A stretch of 25,466 nucleotides of DNA from a virus. The stretch is from IMG/VR virus record IMGVR_UViG_3300025872_000276, positions 1 to 25,466 of that record; one strand, given 5' to 3'. Of the stretch, positions 8,640-23,941 are shown one piece after another. The notes under the pieces are model-generated. The model saw nothing but the letters and a program-made list of their open reading frames with translations, was not told the DNA's origin and did not search any database. The translations under genes and the position numbers were made by a program. Every line of letters begins with the position of its first letter. Positions within the stretch are counted from its first letter, which is position 1.

Positions 8640-11600
8640 TTAATTCAATTTCTTTTTTAACTCATCAATTTGTTCTTGTTGCTCACGAATTGCTTCAATC
8701 AATACTCCAATTAATCCATTATAATTTACAGTTTTATTTTCACTGGTGCTTACAAGTTCTGGGAAGATTTTTTCAACCTCTTGAGCAATTACGCCCATAG
8801 ACTGTTTATGAGTATCTTTCCATTCAAAATTAACTCCACGAATTTGAAGAATTTTATCAATTGGATTTTGTATTTGGATAATATTTGTCTTCAGATTAAT
8901 ATCAGAATTTGAATTGAAGTCTGAAGCAGTTACAATTCCGGTATAATTACCATTTAAAGCAGAAATAGTTCCCGTAGTTGCACTTATATTTCCATTAGCA
9001 CTTATGTTTCCAGTAGCACTTATGTTTCCAGTAACACTAATTCCAGAAGAGGTTGTAGAAAGTTTTGAAGAATTATTAAAGAATAAAGAAACTCCACCAT
9101 CTCTTTGTAAAGTGATAGCATTATGAAAATCTGCATCGTTCTTTAAAAGTCTTAAATATACAACTTCATTAGCATTTGTATAGAATTCAAGATAGTGATC
9201 AGATGCAGGAGTAAAGTTAAGTTCTCCACTATTTCCAATAGTTAATGATCCAGAAGTCTGAAGAACCCCGTTAGAACTATTATCAAGTCTATAAGTATAA
9301 TCTGAAGTATCTGTTGCGGTGTTATGGAAATCAATATATCTACCAATTTCGATAACACCATCAGAAGAAACAATAGGATCAATATTCCAGCGATTTCCTG
9401 AAGAACTACCAGTAGTTCCAAGTCCAACAAATGATAAAGTTGTAATTCCAGTCTTAGAGTCGTACTGAGAATTAATTGAAATGTTTGTTCCGACAAATTT
9501 TATTAAACTAGAAAATCCAACATATCCACTACTAGTTGATACATTAACACCAGTTTGTGCAGCACCAACAGTATATCCACCAATCGCACCAAATAATTCC
9601 CATTGATTATTTGTGGTATAAACCCAACCTATAGTTCCTCCACTTGTTGGATTTGCATCATATTGAATATCTCCTGGGTTTCCAGCGAGAATTGGAGTAG
9701 AAATTCCAACAGTGTACTTTCTAGAAACATCAACATTTCCTTGTAAGAATAAAGAACTTGCCTCAATACCCTTAATTGATGTTGATGTAACTTTATCTCC
9801 AAATATTACAGGTCCATTAAATTCAGAAATAGCATTTCCTCCAGATCCTCCTTCAACTTTAATCGAACGACTAAAGTTTCCTTCAACTAGATTAATAACA
9901 TTCAGTGCTGGTTCATTACCAATATCTTCACCAGTTACAGTCTGAATTGGAGTATCAAAGATCTCTTCTTGTCCAGTAACTGTGCTTAACTTCTTATTAC
10001 CAGAGTATGAGATACCCTTATCATTCATACCAGTATAGAAGTTAATTCCACCTTCTCTTCTGGTCGATTGTGCAAGAAGTTCTTCCTGTGCAGAAATCTG
10101 ACGATCTTGCTTATCTGGGAATGCGGTTGAATAATTACCAGGACCAAATCCAACATATTCAAAAGTATGTCCAGATGCACGAATGATAGAATGTCTTCTC
10201 AATTCAACTGGAAGTGGATTAACTCTTCTTACGGTAGCACCTAAAGAATGAGTACTTGCCTTAGTTCCAAGAACTCCACGGAAAACTTTAATTGGATCAC
10301 CACTAACAATAGAACCAGAAACAGTTGTTTTGACTCTTACTAATTCATCTTCAATCTGCAAATAATCGCCAATTTTAATATCAAGTTTATCAATTCCTGT
10401 AATTGTAATATCTTCCGTAGTTTCATCACCAACATTATAAAGTAAAGTTGTACTGATTCCAGCATAACTTACATTCATTCTTCCAGAAATATTTTCATAA
10501 TTGGAAGAAATAGAACCATCATTTGAAGTAACACCCTCAGGATATGCATAAATTGTTCCAGATACTGAAGGAATAGTATTAGAAACTCCAACATTAAGAA
10601 TAAATGTTTTTAATCCAAGTTTTTGTTTTACAACAAAATCACCATTATAAAAACTTTGGGTGGATCCTGTAATTCTAATCTTATTATCTACAGAGAATCC
10701 GTGGTTATCAATTGTCGTAACAGTTGCCAATCCAGTAACATTATTGTAAGTAATATTACTTACACGAATTGATTTGCCTGTAAGATACGCATACGCATTT
10801 TGAGAAAGAGTTGATCCAACACCAACTGTCGAGAATCCAGAAATTGAATTTGAGGACGTAACTGTAAAACTCTTAGCAGCACCAACTACAATATTTGTAA
10901 TTCTATAAAGATCATTATACCCTTGTAAACTTTCCGAAGAAACACCAGAAACTCTTACGACATCACTAACGTTATTATAAATTTCAGCAACTTGTACAAT
11001 TGCTCTTATAAATCCAGTTGTTGTAGCAATACCTGTTACTGTAAGAGTATTACCAATTCCATATGCGCTACCTCCATCCATTATACGGATATCAGTAATA
11101 TTACCAGAAGGATTAACTGCAACTCTTGCAGTTGCGTGATATCCTGTTGTTGATCCAGCAAATCCAACTAATCGTGCATTATAATAAGTCCCTCCAGATC
11201 CTTCACCATATCCAACACCACCATAAACAATATTGAGTTTTGTAATACGGTTTAATCCGTGATCAATTGTTGTGTGTACAGTATGAGTTGTTGAACTAGT
11301 AGAAACAATATTTGTAATTCCTACGCCAATGTTAGTATCAGATAGTATTTTAGATACAGTTTCTTTAGTGATACTATTGCGAACATCATTTACAACAACT
11401 TCTCCAATTAAAGAAGAAGATGCGAAAGATTTTGCCTCTTTTGGATCAGATACTGGATTATCACGGTTTGTTTGTGGATATAACTCTTTAACAGGTTGAG
11501 AATAACTTTCTCCCGTAAAGGGTTGTACTACAGGAGTATTTGATGAGTTAACTATAGTTAAATAGTAAACACCATCTTGCTTTCCTGGAACATATTTTTG

Positions 11601-14441
11601 TACTTCTTGATTCCTGTAGATATAATAAATGTTATTGTATCTCTTTCTCTTAAAATAAGGTAAAGAAGTAGTTCTAGATGACGTATTATTAGCAAATGTT
11701 CCTGGGTTTGTATTTAATCCAACAGAAAATTCTTTAGCACTACTAATTCCAGAAACAACATAAGTTCTATTAAATCCAGAATCTCCTATTCCAGTTGTAT
11801 TAAATGTACTCTTAACATTTACAAGTTCAACCTGAGATCCTACTTTTAGATTATGAGGAAGTTCAGTGGTAATTTTTGCAGTACTAGACCCATCCCAAGA
11901 AGCATTTGCAATAAATTTGAAGTTTCTCTGTTCATCAAATTCCGTAAATGTCCCACTGTTAAAGTATTTTTGAATTTCAGTATCTGATGCTCCAGTAGTA
12001 TCATTAGATTCTTGAAGAATAAATCCATCACTTGGCGGTCTTGCATACTTTTCAGATGTTCCTTTAGGAATTACATAACGAAGTCTATAAATTGTATCTG
12101 ATGCGTTTCTATTATACTTCTTACGTTTAATATAAGTTCTTGGTGTTGCTTCTCCAAGTCCACCAGTTCCAAGACTTACAATAATTGGTCTAATCGTATT
12201 ATCTGTAGAAGATGTCGATACTTTTACATACCATTGACCAACAGTAGTATCATATTGAATCGGATGTCCAATATCTCCAGGAACTTTATCAGATACTCTA
12301 CTTACAACTTTTAAAGAACCACCTTTATTGTTAAGGGTTATTTCTGATGCATCTTTAGCATCATTCAAAGTTTTTGCTATCTTAATAAGTGAAGTATCAC
12401 CCGAAGTAAATCCACTACCAACATTTGTATTTGTAATAGCATAATAAACGGTATTTTGAATTATTCCCTCTGGTAGTTGTCCAGTTTCACTTATAACACG
12501 AATAGATTCTCCATTCTCAAATGTATGTGGAGAAGTTAAAGTAATAATATTAGATGTAATGCTATTAATACCAATAGAACTTCTACCAACATTAAAAGAC
12601 TTCTCAGAACTTGTCTGAGAATTAGGCATTACGATACGTGAACTATATTCGTTAGTTATTCCGCCACTTGAGATTAAAATTCGAATCGTATCATTTTCTC
12701 TTGCACCAATTCTATACCCCTCAATAACGTGATTTGGAGAAACATCACGATTTTTTTCATTATACAAATATAACCTTTCATTTGTAGAGACTCCTACAGT
12801 AGAAGAAACATCTATAGCACCAAATTCAATTGATATCTCTTCATTTGAAATTTCTTTTGGAGGGATAATATGAGTAATATATCCACGATCATCTTGTGGG
12901 AATGCATTCTTTCTAAATCCAGAAGCAACAAGTGATTTTGATCCGAAGTTTGAGTTTGAGTTTGTAACAGATTGATCACCACCACTTTCTACAGAAAAAT
13001 GTTCCGCATATCCAATTGCAAATATAGAAACGTTCTGAATAAATGCATCATTAATACACTTAATATGGAAGTTTCTATATGAAGGTTTATATATTGCTCT
13101 TGAATTTGAACTTATAGTTTCATTTCCGGCAAAAGTATTATCTTTATATGTTCCCGTTGTTTCATCATAAAGAACAAATGCATTATTGTCTTTTTGAAGC
13201 CCAATTCCAGTGAATTGAGCAATGACCATAGATTTAAATCCAGAAGCCTTATCACCATCAGCAAGAACACCACACATACCATAAACAGATCTCAATGAGA
13301 GGTTGAAAATGTACGGTGACGCTGAAGTTACAGTATCAGAAGATAATGATAACACAGATCCTATTGCAGAAGGAGCAGCAACAGTAGGTGCATTTTGCAC
13401 TTTATACTTAATCTGAGTATCACTTACTTTTTCAGTTACAACAAAGTTTCCATCATATCCTTCTGCTGATATTCCTTCAATTCTAAAAGGAGTATCAACT
13501 TCCAATCCAGAAACAGCAGACTCCGTTGTTACGGTAATTGTCGTAGAAGAAGTTACTCCATCACCAGAACGAATACTTGTAATTCCTACAGATAATCCAG
13601 TAGAACCTACAATACGATATTCATCAATCTTAGGTTCAATATCAATTGAAGTTGAAGGATAATCTGGTTCAATAGAACGCCCAGATGATGCTCCATAAGC
13701 AAGACCAACTTTCTCATAATACATATCCAGATCTGTACGATCTGTAGAATATGTTTGGAATTCATCTTTAATTGATACTGGATTTACACCATCAACATAC
13801 TCAAAACAAGAAAGTTTATGGTGTGAGAAGTTTGGAACAAATAAGTTAGTAGTATAATCAATATAGCATTGTCCATTTGGATCCGCATCAAAGAGAGAAA
13901 ACTGCCAGAAATAACAACCACCAGTTACTCGGAAAATAGAAGATCTTCCAATATTATCATTAATTGGATTTGGAACATACTTTGGACGAATTTTTGTCTT
14001 TCTTAAATCTAATCCAATTAAAGAAGTTCCCCTTGGTACAATTACACCACCGTGAATACTATTAAGTTTATAAAGTGCATTACCAGGATCACTAAGATCA
14101 AAGTTAGTTGATAATTCAAATGGAGGAAAGTTATTTGAAGTAGTACCGTTTCTTAATCTAAAATTATTAGATCCATCTGGTATCCATCCCGGACGGTTAT
14201 CAATTATATGATCACCCGGATAAACTAAAATTGTAGTTTTACCAAATCTATCGTTATTCAGACCTCTCTGATATGAAAATCTTGCCGCTTCAACGAGTGC
14301 TCTTTGAATAGTTTTAAACGGACGAGTTAAACTATTTCCTTGATTTTCAATACTATCAGTAGCATCAAGACTGTTTGGATCAACATACAGAATATTACCA
14401 CGAACAGACTTCAGAAAATTTTCCAGGCGTGAAAGACCCAT
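8640..14441 (-). CDS. Very large tail fibre protein with S74 chaperone
   Basis: A 1933-residue structural protein, the largest gene here. The N-terminus (MGLSRLENFLKSVRGNILYVD, then ATDSIENQGNS and TRPFKTIQRALVEAARFS) is a conserved cyanophage fibre opening that leads into a beta-helix. Around residue 484 is ESGGDQSVTNSNSNFG, around 1070-1119 are GGVGYGEG and GGSAYGIG motifs, and around 1424 is HTFEYVGFGPGNYSTAFP, all related to parts of the 908-residue fibre. Residues 1846-1933 are an S74 chaperone (SDINLKTNI, RGVNFEWK, MGVIAQEVEKIFPELV) with a terminal coiled coil. Ser1846 and Lys1851 match the family's catalytic pair. Expected to trimerise and release its own C-terminus. A late-promoter candidate lies 32 bases upstream of the ATG. 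The receptor is unknown. Confidence 0.9.
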   Translation of the reverse strand: MGLSRLENFLKSVRGNILYVDPNSLDATDSIENQGNSLTRPFKTIQRALVEAARFSYQRGLNNDRFGKTTILVYPGDHIIDNRPGWIPDGSNNFRLRNGTTSNNFPPFELSTNFDLSDPGNALYKLNSIHGGVIVPRGTSLIGLDLRKTKIRPKYVPNPINDNIGRSSIFRVTGGCYFWQFSLFDADPNGQCYIDYTTNLFVPNFSHHKLSCFEYVDGVNPVSIKDEFQTYSTDRTDLDMYYEKVGLAYGASSGRSIEPDYPSTSIDIEPKIDEYRIVGSTGLSVGITSIRSGDGVTSSTTITVTTESAVSGLEVDTPFRIEGISAEGYDGNFVVTEKVSDTQIKYKVQNAPTVAAPSAIGSVLSLSSDTVTSASPYIFNLSLRSVYGMCGVLADGDKASGFKSMVIAQFTGIGLQKDNNAFVLYDETTGTYKDNTFAGNETISSNSRAIYKPSYRNFHIKCINDAFIQNVSIFAIGYAEHFSVESGGDQSVTNSNSNFGSKSLVASGFRKNAFPQDDRGYITHIIPPKEISNEEISIEFGAIDVSSTVGVSTNERLYLYNEKNRDVSPNHVIEGYRIGARENDTIRILISSGGITNEYSSRIVMPNSQTSSEKSFNVGRSSIGINSITSNIITLTSPHTFENGESIRVISETGQLPEGIIQNTVYYAITNTNVGSGFTSGDTSLIKIAKTLNDAKDASEITLNNKGGSLKVVSRVSDKVPGDIGHPIQYDTTVGQWYVKVSTSSTDNTIRPIIVSLGTGGLGEATPRTYIKRKKYNRNASDTIYRLRYVIPKGTSEKYARPPSDGFILQESNDTTGASDTEIQKYFNSGTFTEFDEQRNFKFIANASWDGSSTAKITTELPHNLKVGSQVELVNVKSTFNTTGIGDSGFNRTYVVSGISSAKEFSVGLNTNPGTFANNTSSRTTSLPYFKRKRYNNIYYIYRNQEVQKYVPGKQDGVYYLTIVNSSNTPVVQPFTGESYSQPVKELYPQTNRDNPVSDPKEAKSFASSSLIGEVVVNDVRNSITKETVSKILSDTNIGVGITNIVSTSSTTHTVHTTIDHGLNRITKLNIVYGGVGYGEGSGGTYYNARLVGFAGSTTGYHATARVAVNPSGNITDIRIMDGGSAYGIGNTLTVTGIATTTGFIRAIVQVAEIYNNVSDVVRVSGVSSESLQGYNDLYRITNIVVGAAKSFTVTSSNSISGFSTVGVGSTLSQNAYAYLTGKSIRVSNITYNNVTGLATVTTIDNHGFSVDNKIRITGSTQSFYNGDFVVKQKLGLKTFILNVGVSNTIPSVSGTIYAYPEGVTSNDGSISSNYENISGRMNVSYAGISTTLLYNVGDETTEDITITGIDKLDIKIGDYLQIEDELVRVKTTVSGSIVSGDPIKVFRGVLGTKASTHSLGATVRRVNPLPVELRRHSIIRASGHTFEYVGFGPGNYSTAFPDKQDRQISAQEELLAQSTRREGGINFYTGMNDKGISYSGNKKLSTVTGQEEIFDTPIQTVTGEDIGNEPALNVINLVEGNFSRSIKVEGGSGGNAISEFNGPVIFGDKVTSTSIKGIEASSLFLQGNVDVSRKYTVGISTPILAGNPGDIQYDANPTSGGTIGWVYTTNNQWELFGAIGGYTVGAAQTGVNVSTSSGYVGFSSLIKFVGTNISINSQYDSKTGITTLSFVGLGTTGSSSGNRWNIDPIVSSDGVIEIGRYIDFHNTATDTSDYTYRLDNSSNGVLQTSGSLTIGNSGELNFTPASDHYLEFYTNANEVVYLRLLKNDADFHNAITLQRDGGVSLFFNNSSKLSTTSSGISVTGNISATGNISANGNISATTGTISALNGNYTGIVTASDFNSNSDINLKTNIIQIQNPIDKILQIRGVNFEWKDTHKQSMGVIAQEVEKIFPELVSTSENKTVNYNGLIGVLIEAIREQQEQIDELKKKLN

Positions 14442-14472
14442 CTTATTAATACTTATAGTTTCCGTTATAAGT

Positions 14473-14480
14473 TATTTATC
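14473..14480 (-). promoter_or_regulatory. Late promoter candidate (GATAAATA)
   Basis: The minus strand reads GATAAATA, seven of eight matches to TATAAATA with the core intact. It lies between the terminator hairpin and the ATG of the 1933-residue fibre, 32 bases before that ATG, so it would restart late transcription after the accessory cassette. Confidence 0.6.
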
Positions 14481-14486
14481 TACAAG

Positions 14487-14511
14487 AAAACCTCCTACAA
14501 GAGGAGGTTTT
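14487..14511 (-). terminator. Rho-independent terminator after the accessory cassette
   Basis: A perfect ten-base-pair stem (AAAACCTCCT with AGGAGGTTTT) around a five-base loop, ending in a run of four T on the minus strand. It begins six bases after the stop of the Mom-like gene and just before the late promoter of the fibre operon. The stem also ends in T on the other strand, so it could act both ways, but no plus-strand gene faces it. Confidence 0.75.
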
Positions 14512-14516
14512 ACAAG

Positions 14517-15164
14517 TCACACGGAAGGAGTTTGGTTAGTATCGCCTTGATTATTATACCACTTCTCTTCTTTCCAAGTCAAGTTTTTTTGTAGTTGTCT
14601 ATCAAATACCATCAAATATCTATGTTTACGACTTCTTTCTCTCCATTCACCTTCAGAACCTTTTACTTTACCTCGTGAATGTTTAGTTCCGTCTGAATAG
14701 TAGAAATCTTTTTTTGAATCTGTAAGACCGTAATACTTAAAGTTACAAGCCCGATAAATTGTACCACTATGAAAGTCATTATCAGCATATGAGAGGATTG
14801 CTTTGACTTCAGTATCCTTTCGCAGTTGTCTAATCGCTTTTGAAACGAACCAAGAAGTGATATTATACTCGCTCTGTTGAGTTTGCGGATGAATACAGAG
14901 TCTTGAGAGTTCAAAGAGTCCTTGTTGCTCATTTCTTTCAAGTCCAAAAGCGCCTTTTGCAATTTCTGGAACTGGTAGTCCTGTGAAAATCACGACCCCC
15001 TTTAATCCACCAATATTTAGAGGTGAGAACTCATTTCTTTGAAACAATCCATAATTCCAACCACTTTTGAAACTTTTTGAAATATCTTTAAGATAATGAT
15101 ATTGAAGTAAAAGTTCCTCTGCTTGCTTTTTGGAAACTACATCAATATAAAAATCAGATTTCAT
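14517..15164 (-). CDS. Mom-like GNAT protein, candidate DNA adenine modification enzyme
   Basis: A 215-residue protein that resembles the Mom family of phage Mu, a GNAT-fold enzyme that modifies adenine in phage DNA and protects it from restriction. Visible matches are an HY pair at residues 23-24, FELSRLC at 84-90 (Mu Mom has a similar Glu-Leu-Asn/Ser-Arg-Leu), and SYAD at 125-128 followed by GTIYRACNFKYYG at 134-146. Mu Mom, as I recall it, has a closely similar Ala-Asp...GTIYRA segment. A Ser-Asp-Gly-Thr segment follows at 157-160, and a basic C-terminal stretch with KHRYLMVFD at 180-188. It starts four bases inside the preceding 57-residue gene and is followed by a terminator. The Mom assignment is from motif memory; a general GNAT acyltransferase with another substrate remains possible. 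Confidence 0.75.
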   Translation of the reverse strand: MKSDFYIDVVSKKQAEELLLQYHYLKDISKSFKSGWNYGLFQRNEFSPLNIGGLKGVVIFTGLPVPEIAKGAFGLERNEQQGLFELSRLCIHPQTQQSEYNITSWFVSKAIRQLRKDTEVKAILSYADNDFHSGTIYRACNFKYYGLTDSKKDFYYSDGTKHSRGKVKGSEGEWRERSRKHRYLMVFDRQLQKNLTWKEEKWYNNQGDTNQTPSV

Positions 15165-15334
15165 TCAAATTGCTTACATTCCATCATATATTCTACAGTA
15201 TTTGCTACATCATTCATAGCATCACGCAAAAATGGTTGTTGTCCTGATTCTTGCCTTACAATGGGCCTTGAATCATCAGTTAGAATCCATCGCCACTGTT
15301 TCATAGATTCGCAGTACCAGAGTTGCACCTTCAT
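15161..15334 (-). CDS. Small protein overlapping the Mom-like gene
   Basis: A 57-residue frame with an ATG at 15334, opening MKVQLWYCESMKQWRWILTD, passing through VRQESGQQPFLRDAMNDVA and ending EYMMECKQFE. Its TGA overlaps the ATG of the Mom-like gene (ATGA), the usual sign of coupled translation, which is the main evidence that it is real. The composition is that of a soluble, folded small protein with aromatic residues near the N-terminus, and no membrane segment is seen. In phage Mu a small protein, Com, also precedes and overlaps mom and controls its translation. This protein has only two Cys and no zinc finger, so it is not recognisably Com. Function unknown. Confidence 0.7.
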   Translation of the reverse strand: MKVQLWYCESMKQWRWILTDDSRPIVRQESGQQPFLRDAMNDVANTVEYMMECKQFE

Positions 15335-15356
15335 TTTATAGTTTTATAAGAACTAA

Positions 15357-15429
15357 AGCCCTCATTCGGAATCGAACCGAAAATCTTCCGCTTACAAGGC
15401 GGATGCAGTAACCGTTATGCTATAAGGGC
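15357..15429 (-). tRNA. tRNA-Thr (anticodon UGU)
   Basis: A complete cloverleaf of 73 bases. The acceptor stem GCCCTTA pairs with TGAGGGC (one G-U pair), a D arm contains GG in its loop, the anticodon stem is TCCGC/GCGGA with loop CTTGTAA (anticodon TGT), and the T arm is TTCGG-TTCGATT-CCGAA. CCA is not encoded. It would read ACA codons, which are abundant in the surrounding AT-rich structural genes. Its 5' end is separated by a single base from the stop codon of the 89-residue gene, so the two are probably on one transcript and parted by RNase P. Confidence 0.96.
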
Positions 15430-15430
15430 A

Positions 15431-15700
15431 TCAATCAGCAGGCATCATTTCTGGATTTTCCAGTTCAACTTCAAACATAAGAGGATGGCATTCTTCACAC
15501 ATCAAATAATATGATGCCTGATAGAGATGTTCTGGTTCAAAGCGTTTTTCGTTGTCTGCTAATTCTATGAGTTCCATATCGTACATAAGACTATCTGGAA
15601 CATCATCAAAGGTAAAGGGAATATTCTGAATGAAGTACATCAGGACCAATTGAGACCCTTTATTGTACCAAACGTATCTGGCGTCTATTCTGTATTTCAT
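15431..15700 (-). CDS. Hypothetical protein between two tRNA genes
   Basis: An 89-residue protein of unknown function. It opens MKYRIDARYVWYNKG, has a hydrophobic beta-like stretch (SQLVLMYFIQNIPFTF, 16-31), an acidic middle, and one CEECH segment at 68-72. A single CxxC pair is not enough for a standard zinc ribbon, though a dimer could share a metal. No signal peptide is apparent. It sits between tRNA-Leu and tRNA-Thr, with only one base between its stop codon and the tRNA-Thr. A TCTAAATA octamer lies about 24 bases upstream of the ATG. It may be a small early phage protein, but I do not recognise it. Confidence 0.7.
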   Translation of the reverse strand: MKYRIDARYVWYNKGSQLVLMYFIQNIPFTFDDVPDSLMYDMELIELADNEKRFEPEHLYQASYYLMCEECHPLMFEVELENPEMMPAD

Positions 15701-15723
15701 AGAATAGTCCTTTACTTTTGATT

Positions 15724-15731
15724 ATTTAGAG
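15724..15731 (-). promoter_or_regulatory. Weak late-promoter candidate (TCTAAATA)
   Basis: The same seven-of-eight variant seen before the 477-residue fibre gene, here about 24 bases before the ATG of the 89-residue gene. It overlaps the foot of a hairpin following tRNA-Leu. In a cassette that looks early-expressed, this may be chance. Confidence 0.2.
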
Positions 15732-15749
15732 GAGGTTAAGTCCTCTAAT
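15727..15749 (-). other. Hairpin directly after tRNA-Leu
   Basis: An eight-base-pair inverted repeat (TTAGAGGA / TCCTCTAA, seven-base loop) starts immediately after the tRNA-Leu discriminator base. On the minus strand it is not followed by a T run, so it is a poor intrinsic terminator. It could guide tRNA 3' processing or protect the downstream message from exonucleases; this is inference. Confidence 0.4.
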
Positions 15750-15833
15750 AGGAGCGGGGGGAATCGAACCCCCACGGTCATACGACCAGCAGATTTTAAG
15801 TCTGATACGGCTACCAGTTACGTCACGCTCCCA
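15750..15833 (-). tRNA. tRNA-Leu (anticodon UAA), long variable arm
   Basis: A class II tRNA of 84 bases. The acceptor GGGAGCG pairs with CGCTCCT (G-U at the end pair), the D arm is ACG...CGT with GG in the loop, the anticodon loop is CTTAAAA (anticodon TAA), the variable arm GGTC-GTAT-GACC identifies Leu, and the T arm is GGGGG-TTCGATT-CCCCC. CCA is not encoded. The first pair of the anticodon stem is a T-C mismatch, a slight irregularity. It would read UUA codons, which suits AT-rich phage genes. Confidence 0.93.
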
Positions 15834-15839
15834 TAAAAA

Positions 15840-16046
15840 TCACCCTTTGTAGGTGATAGGATTATACTTGAGATACTCACGAAATGTCAACTTCATTTCT
15901 TTTTGTGACATTCCGCAGTGTTTTGCTGCTTCAGGAAGATTCATTTTAGCATAAAACAAACCTTCATTTGATTGTTGGACATTTAGAGGAGTCGTTTTGA
16001 CTGGTTCCTCTTTGAGGGATTTATAATTGATTTTGTATAAATTCAT
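15840..16046 (-). CDS. Small protein with AraC-like helix-turn-helix pattern
   Basis: A 68-residue protein. Its C-terminal half, LPEAAKHCGMSQKEMKLTF (37-55) followed by REYLKYNPITYKG, follows the rhythm of the second helix-turn-helix of AraC-type regulators (Ala-Ala, Gly-Met-Ser, Phe-Arg/Lys, then Pro..Tyr). Such a single half-domain could bind DNA only as an oligomer or act on a partner protein. The N-terminal half is polar and probably disordered. A seven-pair A/T-rich hairpin (16047-16062) lies directly before the ATG and no clear Shine-Dalgarno sequence is seen. It belongs to the sigma70-driven cassette. The regulator role is a hypothesis from pattern alone. Confidence 0.65.
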   Translation of the reverse strand: MNLYKINYKSLKEEPVKTTPLNVQQSNEGLFYAKMNLPEAAKHCGMSQKEMKLTFREYLKYNPITYKG

Positions 16047-16109
16047 ACTTTTTCAAAAAAGTATCGTGTGAGATTTTTACCGGGAAAATTTTTAGACCAA
16101 AAATGGAAC

Positions 16110-16292
16110 TTAAAGTGGATTTGCGTATGAGAGTGTCTCTTCATCCACCGTAGCACGAACAAAATCTAGCACATTCATAAACTCTTGAACAGTATCACAG
16201 GACACTTGCTTTTCTGACCCTTCGCTGGAATACAGATACACTGTTCGCTTCAGAGGATCAACAACACATCGGGTCAGGTACTCATCTTGCAT
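16110..16292 (-). CDS. Hypothetical small protein, first gene of the cassette
   Basis: A 60-residue acidic protein (MQDEYLTRCVVDPLKRTVYL, then SSEGSEKQVSCDTVQEFMNV, then DFVRATVDEETLSYANPL). It looks like two or three beta strands followed by a helix. No known motif was recognised. Its third positions are visibly richer in G and C than those of the flanking tail genes, closer to host-like codon use. It is the first gene after a sigma70-type promoter whose predicted start point leaves an untranslated leader of about 20 bases. A clear Shine-Dalgarno sequence is not visible. Probably an early phage protein; function unknown. Confidence 0.7.
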   Translation of the reverse strand: MQDEYLTRCVVDPLKRTVYLYSSEGSEKQVSCDTVQEFMNVLDFVRATVDEETLSYANPL

Positions 16293-16317
16293 CAGTTCGT
16301 TTCGTGATTACCCAAGT

Positions 16318-16346
16318 ATCATAGCACGGTCAGGGGGGAAAGTCAA
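16318..16346 (-). promoter_or_regulatory. Host-type sigma70 promoter (TTGACT-17-TATGAT)
   Basis: On the minus strand a -35 box TTGACT (16346-16341) and a -10 box TATGAT (16323-16318) are separated by exactly 17 bases. Each box differs from consensus at one position. It lies immediately after the hydrolase stop codon and would start RNA near 16311, leading into the 60-residue gene. The position at the head of a group of small genes and tRNAs, and the lack of such promoters before the fibre genes, support a genuine early or constitutive promoter. Confidence 0.75.
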
Positions 16347-16348
16347 GG

Positions 16349-17374
16349 TCAAACAAAACCAATCCGTTTTAAATGAGTTGTTATGAAGGTACTTATATCG
16401 ACAGTTGCTGCTCCGTTTGCAATTTGACTTGGTGTTGGTAATGAATTTCCTGGCGGAATTAAACGAGGATCCCCTATGTACTCTTGAATTTGTTCATGAT
16501 CATACGTATTAACACCAATATACAAACATAAAGATCTCCCTATTCCAAAAGGCTCTAATGAATCTATAAAATCTATAGCAATTTGTCTTCTTTCACTAGT
16601 ACCTCTAGTACACATTAAAAATTCAGTAACAATTCCAGAAGAAACGAATAAAGTTGGAGATCCATCAGTATAAATTTCATTTTGTTGCGCTGTACTTGAA
16701 AAGTCATTAAATGCTCTACCTGAATCATACGGAACACCAAATGCATTTTTAGTCATAACTACAGTTTCAGGATTAGAGTCCACTAGACCATCAAAAGCAT
16801 TAAGACCAGCACTATCTAAAGAAACACAAGCACGTATACAAGAAGTCGCAATTCCAACATTATTGATATATGAGGTGTTAGTACAAAGTAATGTTGCTAA
16901 ATGTGCTCCTGCGCTATGACCAAAAACTGCAATTCTATCTGGATCTCCTCCATAATCTTGAATGTTATCTCTGACCCATTTTAAAGCATTTGCAACATCT
17001 TTTATATGTGTTGGGTGTTTTACTCTATTTACATCCCAACTTACATAATCATCATTTCCAGATGCAACCCAAGCTGTAGTAATTCCAAATGGTCTACTCA
17101 ATCTATAATTAATACTCACATAAATGCAGCCTAACTCATTAAAAAATTTAGGTTTATAAGCATCATATTGATTTTTGTCTCCAAGAACCCAAGCGCCGCC
17201 ATGAATCATAAAAATGACTGGTTTTTTTACGGGAACGTTTGGTCCTTCATTAAAATGGTAAACATTCAAATCAATAGAAGGTTTTAATTCATCAAAATTA
17301 TTCAACCAAGATACAAAACTATAAGCAATTCCCACACTATTAGGAGTGTTACTCATTATAATTGATACCGTCAT
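16349..17374 (-). CDS. Alpha/beta-hydrolase (esterase-like) in the tail operon
   Basis: A 341-residue protein with the marks of an alpha/beta-hydrolase of the carboxylesterase or formamidase type. HGGAW at 58-62 supplies the oxyanion hole, VSINYRLS at 86-93 is the usual following strand, and GHSAG at 152-156 is the nucleophile elbow with Ser154. His293 in TYDHEQI is the likely catalytic His. The acidic residue is less clear; Glu251 lies about where it is expected. No signal peptide is seen. It starts one base after the stop of the fibre-like 226-residue gene, with an AGGAG ribosome site inside that gene, so it is co-translated with tail proteins. It probably removes acyl groups from host surface sugars or lipids, as part of the virion or with the fibre. 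Substrate and virion location are inferred. Confidence 0.85.
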   Translation of the reverse strand: MTVSIIMSNTPNSVGIAYSFVSWLNNFDELKPSIDLNVYHFNEGPNVPVKKPVIFMIHGGAWVLGDKNQYDAYKPKFFNELGCIYVSINYRLSRPFGITTAWVASGNDDYVSWDVNRVKHPTHIKDVANALKWVRDNIQDYGGDPDRIAVFGHSAGAHLATLLCTNTSYINNVGIATSCIRACVSLDSAGLNAFDGLVDSNPETVVMTKNAFGVPYDSGRAFNDFSSTAQQNEIYTDGSPTLFVSSGIVTEFLMCTRGTSERRQIAIDFIDSLEPFGIGRSLCLYIGVNTYDHEQIQEYIGDPRLIPPGNSLPTPSQIANGAATVDISTFITTHLKRIGFV

Positions 17375-17375
17375 A

Positions 17376-18056
17376 TTAAGTAACTCCTGCTCCAGAAATT
17401 ATATAATAATTTGGTGATATGCAGAGAATTGTTGCTAGACCATATCCATTCAATCCCCTACTATTAGCAGTATCCCCAATTGATACTCTTCTCATTGTTA
17501 CTCCAGTACCAACAGAAATTGACTGAGCATATTCTGAGTCATTGTAAATGGTAACAACATCACCAACATCAAATGTTGATGCATTTAAAGTTACTCCTCC
17601 AGTAGAAATTGCTACGTGTTTTCCTGCGTCTGAAGCAGTCAAAACATATGAATTTGTCCTAAGATTTTGAGGGAGTCCAACTCCATAAAATGCAGATGCC
17701 GTTATGATTCCTGTAGTATTAATGTTGTCATTTGGTCCAATTCCGGAACCAGAACCAGATGAAGTAACAGTAACCACACCTGCTGATATTGGCGATACAC
17801 TTAGATTAGAACCAAAATTAATTGCTGTTGCAGTTCCTACCAAAACATTATCATCTTTAATCACAACACCAGAACCAGATCCAACAATTCCAGTAAGTCC
17901 AGATCCGTCTCCAACAAAAGTTGTAGCGGTAACAATTCCAGCACTTATATCTGGACTTACTCCCATTCCAAAAAGATTTGCTTCATTTTGGATATTTAAA
18001 ATACTGGACTGTCCTGCCGATACATTATCATAAAAAAATGTATATTGTTGAGCCAT
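17376..18056 (-). CDS. Short fibre-like structural protein
   Basis: A 226-residue protein. The N-terminal part contains the cyanophage fibre repeat GIVTATTFVGDGSGLTG (40-56) and a related NTTGIITASAFYG (113-125). Residues 136-226 (SYVLTASDAGKHVAISTGG, then FDVGDVVTIYND, then GLATILCISPNYYIISG) match a beta domain that often ends phage fibre and receptor-binding proteins. GAGGAAG precedes the ATG at good spacing. The downstream hydrolase starts one base after its stop, so the two proteins are probably made in similar amounts and may form one structure. Host target unknown. Confidence 0.85.
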   Translation of the reverse strand: MAQQYTFFYDNVSAGQSSILNIQNEANLFGMGVSPDISAGIVTATTFVGDGSGLTGIVGSGSGVVIKDDNVLVGTATAINFGSNLSVSPISAGVVTVTSSGSGSGIGPNDNINTTGIITASAFYGVGLPQNLRTNSYVLTASDAGKHVAISTGGVTLNASTFDVGDVVTIYNDSEYAQSISVGTGVTMRRVSIGDTANSRGLNGYGLATILCISPNYYIISGAGVT

Positions 18057-18067
18057 TGTCTACTTCC

Positions 18068-18772
18068 TCATTTATTAATACTGTAAATTGAATTATCCCC
18101 AGGATAGTCTTCTATATTTGTTCCCTCATACTCTACGATTAATTTTTCTCCATCTTTTCTCTCACCATTAACCATAAAATAACAATCAATATTTGCACCT
18201 GTTCCTGACTTAATAATTATTCTTTTCCCCCATTCAATTTTTTCAACAATTAAATCTTGAGAATACCCTATTTGCGTAAGGGTAACTGTAATACTTTCTG
18301 GGTCTACAAGACCAAACCAATAACCAGGAAGATTTATTATATTAGAATCTTTGAGTCTTCCACGATAATAAACTCCAGATTCTGGGCCTTCCAAACAAAC
18401 GTGGCGAAGTCTATGCCCAGTTTTTGTAGGATGTGGAATATCAAATGGTTTCCTAGATGTTAAAGTAATTCCACTAGCAGTAACCTGATTAGCAAAAACA
18501 TTTCCACTAAAGTTAGTAGCATTTGCCTCCACATTAAACGTGGGAATTGGACCAGTACTTCCTTCTAAAGTAACGATAGATGTACTAGTACCATTTAAAT
18601 GCATATAAACATAATCAGCAGGAGAAGCAGTTGTGTTTGCAAGGACCATAGAGACATCATCAAGATTAAAAGACCCCTCAAAAGGTTCTACAGAAAAATC
18701 ATCATTATCTCTAAACTCAATTGGTGTACCTGGTCCAGCAAAAGTTCCATATTTTTCAAATGTAAACGCCAT
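18068..18772 (-). CDS. Virion structural protein with HPTK/CLEGPE C-terminal domain (copy 2)
   Basis: A 234-residue structural protein. The N-terminal 100 residues are beta-rich and fibre-like (NFSGNVFANQVTASGITLTS at 87-106). Residues about 110-224 carry a domain seen widely in marine phage structural proteins: DIPHPTKTGHRLRHVCLEGP, then GVYYRGRL, INLPGYW, LVDPESITVTLTQIG, and YFMVNGERKD. The layout (HP, H-x-C-x-E-x-P, Tyr-x-x-Gly, Leu-Pro, Leu-Thr-x-Ile-Gly) also resembles C-terminal domains of fibre-like proteins beginning DHP and containing ESPD. Its function is not known to me, and a folding or attachment role is inference. Its start codon overlaps the stop of its paralogue upstream by one base (TAATG). 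Confidence 0.82.
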   Translation of the reverse strand: MAFTFEKYGTFAGPGTPIEFRDNDDFSVEPFEGSFNLDDVSMVLANTTASPADYVYMHLNGTSTSIVTLEGSTGPIPTFNVEANATNFSGNVFANQVTASGITLTSRKPFDIPHPTKTGHRLRHVCLEGPESGVYYRGRLKDSNIINLPGYWFGLVDPESITVTLTQIGYSQDLIVEKIEWGKRIIIKSGTGANIDCYFMVNGERKDGEKLIVEYEGTNIEDYPGDNSIYSINK

Positions 18773-19434
18773 TATCCTTTAATCTCCGTAATCAATTTGG
18801 GTACATCTTTTCTAGTTCCAAAAATATGATAAAAACAATTTATAGGTATTCCTGGTTTTGCTTGCAGATAAACTTTATTATTCACAATTCTTTTTACAAT
18901 AATATCTTGATGAGCACCAATAGGAGTAAGTGATACCGTTATTGAATCTGCATCTACTAAGTTTATCCAGTATTCTGGAAGTTCAATTTCAGTATTATTT
19001 AATAATCTTCCTCGAACATATACGCCGTTTTCAGGACCTTCAAGACAAGTATGAACTAATTTTTTACCTGGTTTTGTTGGATGATCAATTACAAAATTCT
19101 TAATTGATGCTTGAAGAATTTTTGTTCTTACAACTTTTGCTTCAATATAAGTTGATTTAAGTAGCAAATCAACCCTCACAAAACTTTGAAATCTTGAATA
19201 AAGTCTACACCATAAAGAATATAATGGAACTGTTTTAGCATCAGGATTTTTAAGTTGTCCTACCATTAAAGTTGCTTTGCAACTATTATGATCAGTCGCT
19301 GCTCCAGTTTGAAATGGACCCTCAACAAAAGCAGACCCATTTATTTTTGCGGGACCAATTCCAAGTGCTTTGGGTGTTCCAGCACCACACATTATTTGCC
19401 CACCAGAAGCTACATCATCCATTAAAAATGCCAT
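18772..19434 (-). CDS. Virion structural protein with HPTK/CLEGPE C-terminal domain (copy 1)
   Basis: A 220-residue protein. Residues 114-220 (FVIDHPTKPGKKLVHTCLEG, GVYVRGRL, IELPEYW, LVDADSITVSLTPIG, HIFGTRKD) are clearly paralogous to the C-terminal half of the next gene. The N-terminal 110 residues differ: Gly-rich GGQIMCGAGTPKALGIGPAK then VEGPFQTG, a pattern I recall from cyanophage baseplate-region proteins but cannot name. A strong AAGGAG ribosome site precedes the ATG. Position directly after the needle-like protein suggests a place near the baseplate tip, with fibre or tip attachment as a possible role. Confidence 0.82.
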   Translation of the reverse strand: MAFLMDDVASGGQIMCGAGTPKALGIGPAKINGSAFVEGPFQTGAATDHNSCKATLMVGQLKNPDAKTVPLYSLWCRLYSRFQSFVRVDLLLKSTYIEAKVVRTKILQASIKNFVIDHPTKPGKKLVHTCLEGPENGVYVRGRLLNNTEIELPEYWINLVDADSITVSLTPIGAHQDIIVKRIVNNKVYLQAKPGIPINCFYHIFGTRKDVPKLITEIKG

Positions 19435-19445
19435 AATCTTTCTCC

Positions 19446-20114
19446 TTACTTGTTGTTTTTGCTTTGAATTGCTCTGCCACCAACTTTAGAATCTCTATTT
19501 GCAACAGCATCACTGACCCCACGAATCAGAGATGCATAAAGAGACATTCCCCCATTCGCAGCAATCTCTGCTGTTCCAGGAGTTGCTAATTTGTACATAC
19601 TTTTTGCATTGATAAGAATTTTAGAGTCTGCATCAATTTCAATATTTGAACTTGCTTTCAATCGTATATTGCCTTTAGATCCTCCTTGCCCAACAGCAAT
19701 CAATTCAATATCAGTTCCTTGAAGTCTTAACTTTCCATTTGATGCATTAATAACAATATTTCCATTGTGAGAATGTATGAATAAAGTTTCTTCAGACTCA
19801 GTTTTATCTATACCAGATTCTATTGAAATGCGACCAGGAGCAGTAATTTGAGTAGATCCCTTTCTTGGCCCATCCTTATCAAGAACAATGGATTGTCTTG
19901 AATCAGATGCCTGAATCATTACATCTGCAGTTACATCACCTTGCTTATGAATATGACCAAAATTTATTGAACCGTGATCATTTCCATACCGAACTGCCGT
20001 ATAATTTTGTTTAGCAGTATTATTTCCGGAAATATTTCCGGCAAGAAGTTCTTCCCTACCTGCTTTAGGTGGAGTTGCTACTTTTGTATTATTAATATTC
20101 TGAGCAGTCGCCAT
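19446..20114 (-). CDS. Beta-prism/needle-like baseplate protein
   Basis: A 222-residue protein. Residues about 95-195 show short strand-turn repeats (GRISIESG, TLFIHSHNGNIVINASNGKL, RLQGTDIELIA, GNIRLKASSNIEIDADSKI) in which hydrophobic residues alternate and Gly or Asn sits at turns. This is the texture of the C-terminal triple-stranded beta-prism of T4 gp5 and VgrG spikes. The N-terminal 60 residues contain NYTAVRYGNDHGSINFGHI. It lies two genes after the gp5-like hub, whose C-terminus lacks such repeats, so it may supply the membrane-piercing needle as a separate polypeptide. The spike role is inferred. Confidence 0.78.
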   Translation of the reverse strand: MATAQNINNTKVATPPKAGREELLAGNISGNNTAKQNYTAVRYGNDHGSINFGHIHKQGDVTADVMIQASDSRQSIVLDKDGPRKGSTQITAPGRISIESGIDKTESEETLFIHSHNGNIVINASNGKLRLQGTDIELIAVGQGGSKGNIRLKASSNIEIDADSKILINAKSMYKLATPGTAEIAANGGMSLYASLIRGVSDAVANRDSKVGGRAIQSKNNK

Positions 20115-20148
20115 TATTGAACAATCAATATACTACTATTTAATCAGT

Positions 20149-23100
20149 TTAAGTTTGTTCTGTTGTGGACTGAGGAGTTCCTGGAATATTAAGTCTTGGA
20201 TCATTACTTCTAATATCAGTACCAGATCTCTGAATTGCGCTTGGAGGTGTAGTAACTTTCGCAGTGATACTTTCTTGAAGAGTTGCATAAACTCTTACCT
20301 GAGTACCAGCAGTCTTATAATATCCCGCATATGGAACACCTTGATCATAGTAAACAGCACCATAATATGCTCTTCCATCAACATATCCAGTTTGCTTAAG
20401 ACCAACAAGATCAGTAACTTGAATAAGTTTTTCTGGGGGAAGAAGTGGATCTCTAACAACACGAAATACTGGTCTAAACGATGCGTTTACTCCAGTTTCA
20501 GATAAAATAGTAATTGATGGATAAACGTCAAATCCAATACCAGGATTTAGTACATTAACAGAATTAATTCTACCAAAGGAATCACAATTGTAAGAAAGTT
20601 CTGCTCCATTGCTTGGAACAATTGTTATTTGATCCTCTCCACATCTATAATTAATACCGGGATCTTCTACAATAATATCATCTAAAACAAGCGTAACTGG
20701 ATATCCAGGACCAAGAGGTTGAGGAGGAAGATATCCATTACCAGGATCATTTACAACAACTTTTTCAACTACACCCTTACCTCCTATCTTTTTAGCACAA
20801 GGAGGAGGAATCAATATTGCGGAAACAGCCATTGGATTAACTGTCCAAGGAGTTTTATTTGTTTGTTCAAGAAAAATATCTTTACTAATATAAAGTGCAA
20901 CTCCTCTGGGGTTATCTTCATTACTACCACTTGGGTTTTTTACATTTTCAAGTTGAATTGAAATATCATATTTTCCAGAGGTTGCATTAAAAGTATATTG
21001 AACTTTATTTCCCACAAAATCAGATGTAGTATAAATTTCTTTCCCACCTATAGTTAATTTTGCTATATTATCTGCTTGAAAATTAAATTTATACGTACCA
21101 TCTTCAGGGAAATTTACATTTTTCCAATTTAATGTTACTGTTCCAACTTCATTTACTGGAGTTGGAGAAACTGAAAAATCATTCATAAATGTACTCCACC
21201 TTTTATCAACATATCCAGTTAAAGGAGGTCCACTATAAGTAACACCATTTTTAGAAGAACTCTGAGATGTTGGAGGTGCAGCAGAAGATCCTTGTTTTAC
21301 ACCACTAATAGTAATCTGTATATTTTTATCATCACCATCAGCGTCTCTAAGTGATAATGTATTAGAACTTCCTGTAATTGGTATAGGACCTCTCGCCGCA
21401 GGATCAGCGCCTATAATTTCAATAGGTCCATATGTCTTACCTCCAGTAAAAGTTCCAGATTCTTTTATAGTTTCTTCTGTTGGGGCGCTTAATCCCAAAA
21501 CTCCACCTAAACCATATTCAGTTCTTTGAAATTTAACTTTACCAGAATCTGAAGGTATTATAACCTCTTTAGCAGCCAATCCGGCAATATAAGTAGCATC
21601 ATTAATATCCATCACGAAAGACACTTCTCCGGATCCAGTTCCGTCAACCTGAAGATAATAACTAGATCCTTTTTGAATAAACTTTGCACTTATACTTGAT
21701 GGGGAGGAAGAAGGAGAAGATCTCCAATCTTGAGTACTAAAAATTTTAGTATCTATTATAGTAATACCTTCTACCAATTCATTAGAAACTTCAACGGTAA
21801 TTATATGTCTACCTTTTGTAAGGTATTTTTTTGTTATTTTTGGATTATTTACGCTAGATGAATCAAGTTTTGATACTTCCTGCCCATCTATAAGTAGTCT
21901 TCCATTATTATCTCTTGTACCTTTGACTCCATAATATCCAGCATAAGGAAGATCGATTTCCCAAGAATTAGAAAATGTCGTTCCAGAACTATCACTTCCA
22001 GGAGTATTTAAAGGAAGAACAGGTGATATTGCATACCTATTCATAAATTTACTCCAAACACTGGTTTGACTTTCAGATGAATTTGAAGATGTCGAAAATG
22101 TTTGTAATAATGACAATGCATTGTCATTAAGTGGCAATCCTTGTCTTTGCGCTTCTTCTTGAATTTGTGTAGCGGTTAATCCATCAGCAAGTGCGTTGTT
22201 AATTGCTGTAGCCCCCAATATATCTGGATTTGTATCATTTGGACCTTGTACAAATTTATATTGAGGATATATAACGGGATACCATTTTTGGGTAGATGTA
22301 GGAAATCTGGTAGTCCAAATTGGATTTGGTGGACATTTACCTTCTTGCTCTGGTAGTTTTTCCTGAGGAACAGGCGGAATAGGTGCCTCAATGAGCATTG
22401 AAACTCCCATAGGATTTTCATTCCAAGATTTTGGAGAAATAATCTTTTCCCCAGTTGTAGTTGTAGTTGTTGAAGATGAAGAGGAATTAATAACAGTAAT
22501 CTCAATATTTTTATCATCACCATCAGCATCTCTAAGTGCTAACTTATTAGAACTTCCAGAAATTGGTAGTGGACCTTTTGCCGCAGGATTTGCGCCTAAG
22601 ATTTGAATAGGTCCATATGTCTTACCTCCAGTAAAAGTTCCAGATCCCTTATCACTATCTTTCTCTTTTGAAGGATCTCTTTTTAATGAAATATTTCCAC
22701 CATCTGATGGAATAACAACTTCTTTAGCTGCAAGTCCAGCAATATTAGGATTATCATCAACATCCATAGAAAATGATACTGTCCCACTTCCAGTTCCATC
22801 AACTTGGAGATAATATCCAGATCCTTTTTGAATAAACTTTGCACTTACATTTGAAGTTTTTGGTGCATTTTCTTCTACTGGAGAATTTAATAAATCAACT
22901 CTAATGATATGATTTCCTTCTTGAATTGTTTTCTGAAGGGGAGAGGGGTTATCTTTAAATGATTTTAAATTTCCAACTAAATTATCATCAATATAAACTT
23001 TAGCGGTATTGTCGCATACTCCTCTAAAAATATATTCTCCACTTATTGGAAATTGGTACTCCCATTCAATCTTAAATGTTTTTCCTGCTTCATCAGTACC

Positions 23101-23933: not shown

Positions 23934-23941
23934 TATTTATT
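23934..23941 (-). promoter_or_regulatory. Late promoter candidate (AATAAATA)
   Basis: The minus strand reads AATAAATA, seven of eight matches to TATAAATA with the core intact. It overlaps the stop codon of the gp5-like gene and lies about 21 bases before the ATG of the 1254-residue gene. The spacing is like that of the other candidates in the window. Confidence 0.5.

Follow-up and report, generated by a model that had tools for sequence, protein, structure and literature searches.

A resident accessory locus with a fixed regulatory frame, probably expressed early, inside the late tail operon of T4-like cyanophages

Gene content of the locus

The virus record IMGVR_UViG_3300025872_000276 (25,466 bases, hereafter the window) carries an island of small genes between a tail hydrolase gene and a giant tail fibre gene, all island elements lying on the minus strand. 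Along this strand, the order is hydrolase, promoter P1, p60, p68, transfer RNA (tRNA)-Leu(UAA), p89, tRNA-Thr(UGU), p57, Mom, terminator, NATAAATA late promoter and giant fibre (Table 1). A sequence-only reading of the window had listed these elements (open reading frames, tRNAs, promoter, hairpin and late motif), all of which we recovered where it placed them, and had interpreted them as a self-contained cassette inserted in a late tail operon. DNA matches to the locus in a phage collection are cyanophages, with Synechococcus in 253 of the 312 records and S-SM2 as the best match. The comparisons reported below point to an accessory locus that is resident in T4-like cyanophages, lies within their late tail operon and is probably driven mainly early in infection.

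Table 1. Features of the island and its flanks in the window
Feature	Position	Strand	Evidence or remark
Carboxylesterase-like tail hydrolase, left flank	16349..17374	-	COesterase E 1e-23
P1, sigma70-type promoter TTGACT-17-TATGAT, extended -10 TG	16318..16346	-	predicted start ~16311
p60, DUF7294 protein (PF23966, phrog_662)	16110..16292	-	Pfam E 1.5e-21, PHROG E 1e-17
p68, small protein (phrog_1920)	15840..16046	-	PHROG profile
P2, TTGACA-18-TATAAT inside p68 codons	15861..15890	-	12/12; ends 27 nt before tRNA-Leu
tRNA-Leu(UAA)	15748..15833	-	ARAGORN, Rfam RF00005
p89, conserved small protein (phrog_4134; homologue T4-GC 730 in S-SM2)	15431..15700	-	PHROG profile
tRNA-Thr(UGU)	15357..15429	-	ARAGORN, Rfam
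p57, conserved small protein (phrog_2818; homologue T4-GC 1162 in S-SM2)	15161..15334	-	PHROG profile
Mom-family protein, cargo gene	14517..15164	-	PF25680 E 4e-27, phrog_1384
P3, TTGACT-18-TATAAT, extended -10 TGG, in 3' end of mom	14553..14582	-	predicted start ~14546
Candidate short RNA, ~62 nt, family A	14482..14546	-	5'-GGCGAUACU...CCUUCCGUGUGAC.. plus terminator
Intrinsic terminator, ten-pair stem AAAACCTCCT/AGGAGGTTTT	14487..14511	-	hairpin fold
Late promoter GATAAATA (NATAAATA type) of fibre gene	14473..14480	-	motif at 14480
Giant tail fibre, right flank	8640..14441	-	open reading frame; relatives annotated fiber or tail fiber protein

Fibre loci were collected by scanning IMG/VR with the fibre N-terminus (best 80 of at least 600 loci) and Mom loci by scanning it with Mom (best 80 of 431 confirmed stretches). 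Near-identical sequences were removed before most counts, at thresholds that varied, and loci with too short an upstream sequence were skipped; the counts made without dereplication are identity along 10 loci, the comparison of p60 with the fibre N-terminus (83 loci), left homology limits (72 loci) and the RNA-family scan (116 stretches). The window enters the counts a single time, under L001, WIN or the identical L088. Gene content was scored in those dereplicated fibre loci that extend 3 kb or more upstream (57 loci, the window not among them), and was taken from annotation in 15 records of cultured relatives at the locus. Promoter scores are matches out of 12 to the Escherichia coli consensus.

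Promoters, terminator and late promoter

The host-type promoter proposed for the island is present as P1, but a lone match of this kind is weak evidence, since positions 10000-22000 of the window contain 39 such sites where 50.7 are expected. Support for P1 comes instead from conservation among relatives. Sites that score 10/12 or better, with hexamers 16-18 nt apart, occur in 80 of 81 dereplicated 100-nt regions upstream of p60 (shuffle mean 1.0), and 29 of these regions contain a perfect 12/12 match. The same scan gives 1/57 before p68, 0/65 before p89 and 0/61 before p57. Ten other gene starts with more than one sequence were scanned, seven of which are near chance; counts are raised before tRNA-Leu (17/44), mom (20/56) and u19446 (8/61, shuffle 1.5), the first partly because of P2 and the second partly because of Mom's other genomic site (see below). 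The hydrolase start offers a single distinct sequence, shared by the window and L088. At P1, the extended -10 TG accompanies TATAAT in only 1 of 27 cases but other -10 hexamers in 29 of 43, so that TG and TATAAT appear to substitute for each other (Fisher p 5e-8, over 70 promoters of related sequence). The P1 spacer in the window and its relatives also shows short inverted repeats slightly above chance, in a shifting register. We rejected these repeats as an operator: the best arm averages 3.38, versus 3.14 with swapped halves (standard deviation 0.09, 0/200 as high), and with no fixed register they remain a weak, unexplained signal.

P1 was the only promoter of this type in the earlier inventory, which overlooked two further conserved sigma70-like sites, P2 and P3. 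Read in the p68 frame, the P2 hexamers are Leu-Thr and Tyr-Asn codons. TTG ACA is retained in 21 of 22 dereplicated L-type p68 genes, against island backgrounds of 0.15 for TTG and 0.33 for ACA. A plain coding coincidence was rejected, as other Leu and Thr positions vary in the same p68 genes: TTG is used in 1/21, 7/21, 2/21 and 3/17 at other Leu positions, and ACA in 9, 8 and 0 of 21 at other Thr positions. GAG, TTC and AAG are also frequent near P2, so this stretch is less AT-biased overall, and a Leu codon is missing from the P2 position in all 28 I-type p68 genes. Among 43 Mom loci, 34 have a P3 site scoring 10/12 or better at 128-160 nt upstream of the fibre gene (shuffle 3.1); among 39 loci without Mom, 12 have one, at 125-153 nt (shuffle 2.1). 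Its Leu codon is TTG in all 41 dereplicated Mom C-termini with the LTW motif. Among 26 Mom gene ends not followed by the fibre gene, the P3 sequence was recognized by eye only in L155, whose contig ends there.

On the right side, the ten-pair terminator is confirmed: the 45-nt stretch around the hairpin folds at -14.2 kcal/mol (z -3.35 versus dinucleotide shuffles), and a terminator-like site precedes the fibre gene in 56 of 80 dereplicated loci (shuffled 0.6). The late promoter said to restart fibre expression is likewise conserved across relatives, as NATAAATA precedes the fibre gene in 68 of 80 loci (shuffled 6.8) and TAAATA does so in 80/80 (no control run). Passages of PMC2984593 describe both a NATAAATA late consensus and early sigma70-like motifs in cyanomyoviruses. 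At this locus, each motif stands at a fixed place before the corresponding class of gene, P-SSM2 and P-TIM68 being the exceptions.

The island is thus closed on its right, as a self-contained unit should be, but not on its left, where a terminator-like site was found within 160 nt of p60 in only 2 of 79 loci, which is the chance level (shuffle mean 1.8). No late motif was found within 100 nt before p60 (0/80 loci), and the previous exact sense late motif in the window is at 23941. As no terminator is seen left of p60, late read-through is expected, the late transcripts probably crossing the island as far as 14487.

A resident locus with variable cargo

If the island were a cassette inserted as a unit, some relatives should lack it altogether. 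Among the 57 relatives, p60 is found in 55, p89 and p57 in 47 each, tRNA-Leu and p68 in 39 each, tRNA-Thr in 34 and Mom in 24. Island elements are out of order in none of them (0/57), and in none are the flanks joined without any island gene. Of the two relatives without a p60 match, one (L007) keeps p68, both tRNAs and p57, and the other (L058) just a Mom match. The distance from the p60 start to the fibre gene ranges from 277 to 3194 nt (median 1493) in the 55 relatives with p60. Cultured relatives carry at this slot a 2OG-Fe(II) oxygenase, CpcT or CpeT, an HNH endonuclease, or tRNA-Met, -Pro, -Gly or -Ile, while P-SSM2 and P-TIM68 carry p60 alone before the fibre gene.

Homology limits provide another view of the boundaries. 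Homology with the window stops within 16293-16348 in 62 of 72 p60-matching loci, inside p60 in nine and one base beyond that interval in one. The stop in the P1/leader interval follows from the fact that the upstream tail gene differs: the window hydrolase has no match upstream of the fibre gene in the 80 fibre loci. In ten loci, homology continues through the island into the fibre gene, with gaps. For example, L089, whose Mom is 98% identical to that of the window, shows 84-85% identity from 16331 through the island into the fibre gene but no matching hydrolase DNA. Together, the homology limits and the L089 comparison indicate that the island stays with the fibre gene while the gene on its left turns over.

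Morons of lambdoid phages are accessory genes that lie inside a late operon but have a sigma70 promoter and a terminator of their own, and the sequence-only reading regarded the island as moron-like cargo, that is a recently acquired cassette entering and leaving as one unit between conserved boundaries. The island does resemble morons in its own sigma70 promoter, its terminator (both on sequence evidence), its late-operon setting and its accessory, variable content. The homology stop at P1 in 62 of 72 loci and the fall in identity of L101 from 79.5% to 67% near the terminator would also suit such a cassette. However, the island is present in nearly all relatives, with near-constant p60, an order that is never broken and no empty site; the two relatives lacking a p60 match keep other island genes; and its composition is like that of this phage type's own non-late genes (see below). 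Moreover, lambdoid morons are expressed from the prophage, whereas the island is probably expressed early in a lytic phage. We therefore consider a recently acquired, moron-like cassette improbable, and we rejected exchange of the whole unit because of the fixed order and near-constant p60. The earlier proposal had taken a conserved order without gain or loss as the outcome that would contradict it: the order is conserved, but the content varies, cargo being gained and lost inside the island. Comparison among relatives thus shows P1, P2, P3, the terminator, the NATAAATA motif and a fixed order with variable cargo, a regulatory frame that is real and shared, and identifies the island as a resident locus of which p60 is the anchor gene.

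The slot is very likely the same genome region as hot-spot (i) of cyanomyoviruses, 'near gp5 with tRNAs' (Sullivan et al. 2010, PMC3037559): in cultured relatives it lies between gp5-side tail genes and the fibre gene, and often holds tRNAs and small genes. That hot-spot was described for its variable content; the frame of promoter, terminator and late promoter, the p60 anchor and the short RNA are absent from the passages describing it.

Composition and codon usage

The first island gene had been singled out as less AT-rich at third codon positions. This is correct but not peculiar to it, as G+C content at third positions (GC3) is 0.25-0.38 in all five island proteins versus 0.10-0.185 in 12 flanking genes. 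Similarly, p60 has a higher GC3 than the fibre N-terminus encoded at the same locus in 82 of 83 cases. We nevertheless rejected recent import as the explanation after comparison with S-SM2, where GC3 is 0.299 in late genes (n=32), 0.411 in replication genes (23), 0.377 in small hypothetical genes (32) and 0.422 in the island (5); these gene sets were hand-picked, in one cultured relative, with five island genes. Island composition is thus like that of the non-late genes of S-SM2 and gives no sign of recent import.

Codon usage bears on the tRNAs. In the window, TTA accounts for 0.46 of the 424 Leu codons of late genes and 0.09 of the 43 Leu codons of the island.

Timing of expression

The suggestion that the unit is expressed early while its flanks are late agrees with our results, and we regard early expression as likely. 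On entry, unmodified host RNA polymerase would read P1 to P3, so that both tRNAs, Mom and the small proteins would be made ahead of the virion genes being switched on. The terminator would block early transcription into the fibre gene, which would be expressed only late, from its own promoter. Later, read-through from the upstream late operon would add to island expression, as there is no terminator on the left. In this model, tRNA-Leu(UAA) would serve TTA-rich late genes, Mom would modify phage DNA against restriction, and the segment from P3 to the terminator would produce a short RNA of about 62 nt, probably acting in trans.

Several observations weigh against this model. The timing is read from sequence motifs, and we found no published gene-level timing for the island locus in the passages of the cyanophage literature consulted. 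In S-RSM4, according to PMC2984593 itself, early motifs of the sigma70-like kind were not found. The consensus used for scoring is that of E. coli, and the window's own P1 scores 10/12, at the weak end of the range. Among nine further cultured phages, P1 scores at least 10/12 in five, but only 9/12 in two (S-PRM1 and S-CAM9) and is missing in two, P-SSM2 and P-TIM68. There is no terminator in 24 of the 80 fibre loci. Most loci come from a single fibre search limited to its best 80, hence a bias towards near relatives. Finally, the TTA contrast is small in S-SM2 (late 0.20, replication 0.08, island 0.16 of 31), and ACA shares of Thr codons in the window are nearly equal (late 0.32, island 0.27), which makes the rationale for the tRNAs weak.

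Some of these points would suit another explanation, in which the promoter matches are incidental and the island consists of ordinary late genes in the late tail transcript: the left side has no terminator, P-SSM2 and P-TIM68 lack P1, and a promoter score is weak by itself. Such an explanation would have to account for P1 in 80 of 81 upstream regions, for the P2 codons retained in 21 of 22 p68 genes, for the P3 Leu codon in 41 of 41 Mom C-termini, and for a terminator sitting just before the fibre's late promoter. It is highly improbable, and mainly early expression of a resident locus remains the reading that we favour.

Products of the island

Mom scores 95.5 bits against PF25680 (curated cut-off 27.1) and shares 46 of 181 aligned residues with Mu Mom (NC_000929), 32 Mu Mom residues being kept in at least 90% of 26 other aligned sequences. 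It is thus predicted to be a DNA adenine modification enzyme. According to PMC7824862, Mom acylates adenine N6. No PDB sequence match was better than E 0.35. Both proteins belong to the PF25680/phrog_1384 family, but their settings differ: that of the window is encoded in an early-type island in a T4-like phage; in Mu, com lies beside mom.

After removal of 23 duplicates from the 80 Mom loci, the fibre gene is next to Mom in 23 of the 57 left and not in 32, while two end early. A second Mom context lies between gp32 and a baseplate wedge gene (L121, L126 and L162; families assigned for L121). In L117-L165, the 32 loci in which the fibre gene is not next, Mom is up to 90% identical to that of the window, one cargo gene thus occupying two sites. 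At the second site, Mom usually has its own TTGGCA-17-TATAAT-like promoter: a promoter is found within 120 nt of mom in 18 of 25 loci without the fibre gene next, versus 1 of 31 with it. Mom therefore mostly lacks its own promoter at the fibre site, as if the island supplied its expression. Cultured matches to Mom are distant (Roseobacter phage CRP-212 54.6% and S-SSM7 29.3%, among the matches listed), all 130 cultured-phage match records being below 60% identity. At the island slot, Mom is annotated in none of the 15 cultured records and was seen just in uncultured contigs.

Regarding the small proteins, p60 scores 76.6 bits against PF23966 (curated cut-off 27), and its homologue is T4-GC 29 in S-SM2 and P-SSM2. 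Its AF2 model (pLDDT 85) gave no PDB match at E 0.001. Neither of the leading rows, the periplasmic domain of FtsH (Foldseek E 0.04) and a small ribosomal protein of the eukaryotic large subunit (Z 6.1), was trusted, and a function from fold was rejected. Pfam and PHROG searches placed p68, p89 and p57 in PHROGs of unknown function only. p68 is predicted to be helix-turn-helix-like from its AF2 model (pLDDT 78), for which the leading PDB rows are mostly helix-turn-helix domains, none of them significant (Foldseek best E 0.22, VIA best Z 5.5). Homologues of p60 also occur in four contigs filed as bacterial genomes (L182-L185); one of these, L182, runs into a phage fibre gene and is thus a phage contig in a bacterial bin. 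Elsewhere in the window, positions 5525-1989 encode a 1178-residue protein made mostly of collagen-like GxQG repeats.

A candidate short RNA before the fibre gene

P3 and the terminator delimit a candidate short RNA. A terminator is present in 43 of 48 P3 loci versus 15 of 34 others, and the sequence between the predicted +1 and the terminator stays conserved even where the stop codon of mom lies at different positions. Scanning IMG/VR with the motifs of three RNA families retrieved 45 stretches for B, 29 for A and 42 for C (116 in all, several contigs being already in the sample), all of them closely preceded by a site scoring 9/12 or better (not controlled by shuffling). Among the 58 loci that have a terminator, the commonest 5-mer is GTGTG (51 loci, shuffled 5.8), and the 6-mer GTGTGA occurs in 40. 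The 46 distinct predicted RNAs average 65 nt (55-78 nt in those listed individually); these lengths were measured to the late motif and are hence slightly too long. The candidate also occurs in the cultured phages S-SM2, Bellamy, S-SCSM2R and S-B43. An extended Shine-Dalgarno or anti-Shine-Dalgarno role was rejected, as 16 to 40 of 100 shuffled sets scored as low.

Passages of PMC9964418 name the cyanophage non-coding RNAs CfrI, PhotoRC-II, wcaG, glnA, manA and abiF. Those are likewise RNA elements of T4-like cyanophages, but no significant Rfam family match was found for the window's P3 RNA or for the unit in the loci scanned. The RNA may thus be new, judging from Rfam and from passages of papers gathered in a literature search not aimed at a short RNA at this locus.

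Rather than making a trans-acting RNA, the P3 unit could be a cis element of the fibre gene, in which a weak early or middle promoter leads to an attenuator-like terminator that is opened late. The fibre gene is indeed directly next in 28 of 29 family A, 34 of 45 family B and 38 of 42 family C stretches, and 9 of the other 16 end too early to tell. On the other hand, the family B leader also heads tRNA operons (L191, L194, L210 and L227) and, in L187 and L207, a short unit with a terminator that precedes a different gene, and in the RNAs displayed conservation sets in at the predicted +1, as if it mattered where the RNA starts. We consider a cis element possible, though rather doubtful. In the four tRNA cases, a 17-nt family B leader with its promoter stands just ahead of the tRNA genes; a long foldable region separates leader and tRNA in L191, L210 and L227, and wcaG RNA motifs occur on two of these contigs (L191 5338-5436, L210 660-560). 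In L276, a family C unit with a late motif precedes a reading frame other than the fibre gene; the block of promoter, RNA, terminator and late promoter may thus serve elsewhere too.

A possible link with Yfr1

According to passages of PMC2190773, the small RNA (sRNA) Yfr1 has an ultraconserved motif, ACUCCUCACAC, and Yfr2 is 89-95 nt long. The GUGUGUAGGAG 5' ends of the Yfr2 family were suggested to pair with Yfr1 (PMC2518516), and Yfr2 relieves Yfr1 repression (PMC6778093). The phage RNA could accordingly sequester the host sRNAs Yfr1/Yfr10, acting as a sponge or as a mimic of Yfr2. The GTGTG and GTGTGA motifs are complementary to ACUCCUCACAC, which is suggestive, and family B begins with GUGUGAAGGAAG, close to GUGUGUAGGAG; families A and C have just GUGUG(A). 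The 46 distinct RNAs interact with MED4 Yfr1 at a mean energy of -8.1, versus -5.1 for shuffled leaders (standard deviation 0.37, 0/60 sets as low), and it becomes -5.4 once the hexamer is permuted in place. GUGUG has an unpaired probability of 0.56, versus 0.42 for the whole RNA.

These figures must be set against the way in which the link was found. A random 6-mer would match the complement of an 11-mer in 6 of 4096 cases, but Yfr1 was picked after the motif had been seen, and the leaders are related, so that the tests are not independent. When the one exact B leader is taken alone, Yfr1 is bound equally well by 25 of 100 shuffles; binding is weak (-2.6 to -4.0) for the GUGUGC members of family A; and the window's own RNA is moderate (-7.5, calculated on L088, which is identical here). 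Although family B starts with a Yfr2-like 5' motif and GUGUG occurs in nearly all phage RNAs, the phage RNAs are shorter than Yfr2, even when measured to the late motif. We thus regard the sponge as unlikely. The same goes for its fuller version, likewise a long shot, in which a new family of phage short RNAs, made from a promoter concealed in the last island gene, would copy the Yfr1-binding end of Yfr2 and titrate Yfr1/Yfr10 in infected cells, so that host messages bound by the two sRNAs change hands, the leader being reused before tRNA operons of other viral contigs.

Biological significance

A resident locus of this kind would explain how early genes can reside in a late tail operon and yet not cause premature expression of the giant fibre. 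It would also mean that the regulatory frame of a hot-spot known for its variability is constant and includes promoters embedded in coding sequence. Finally, as the candidate short RNA gene is present in cultured phages, both its expression and its possible link to Yfr1, a near-universal cyanobacterial sRNA, are directly testable.

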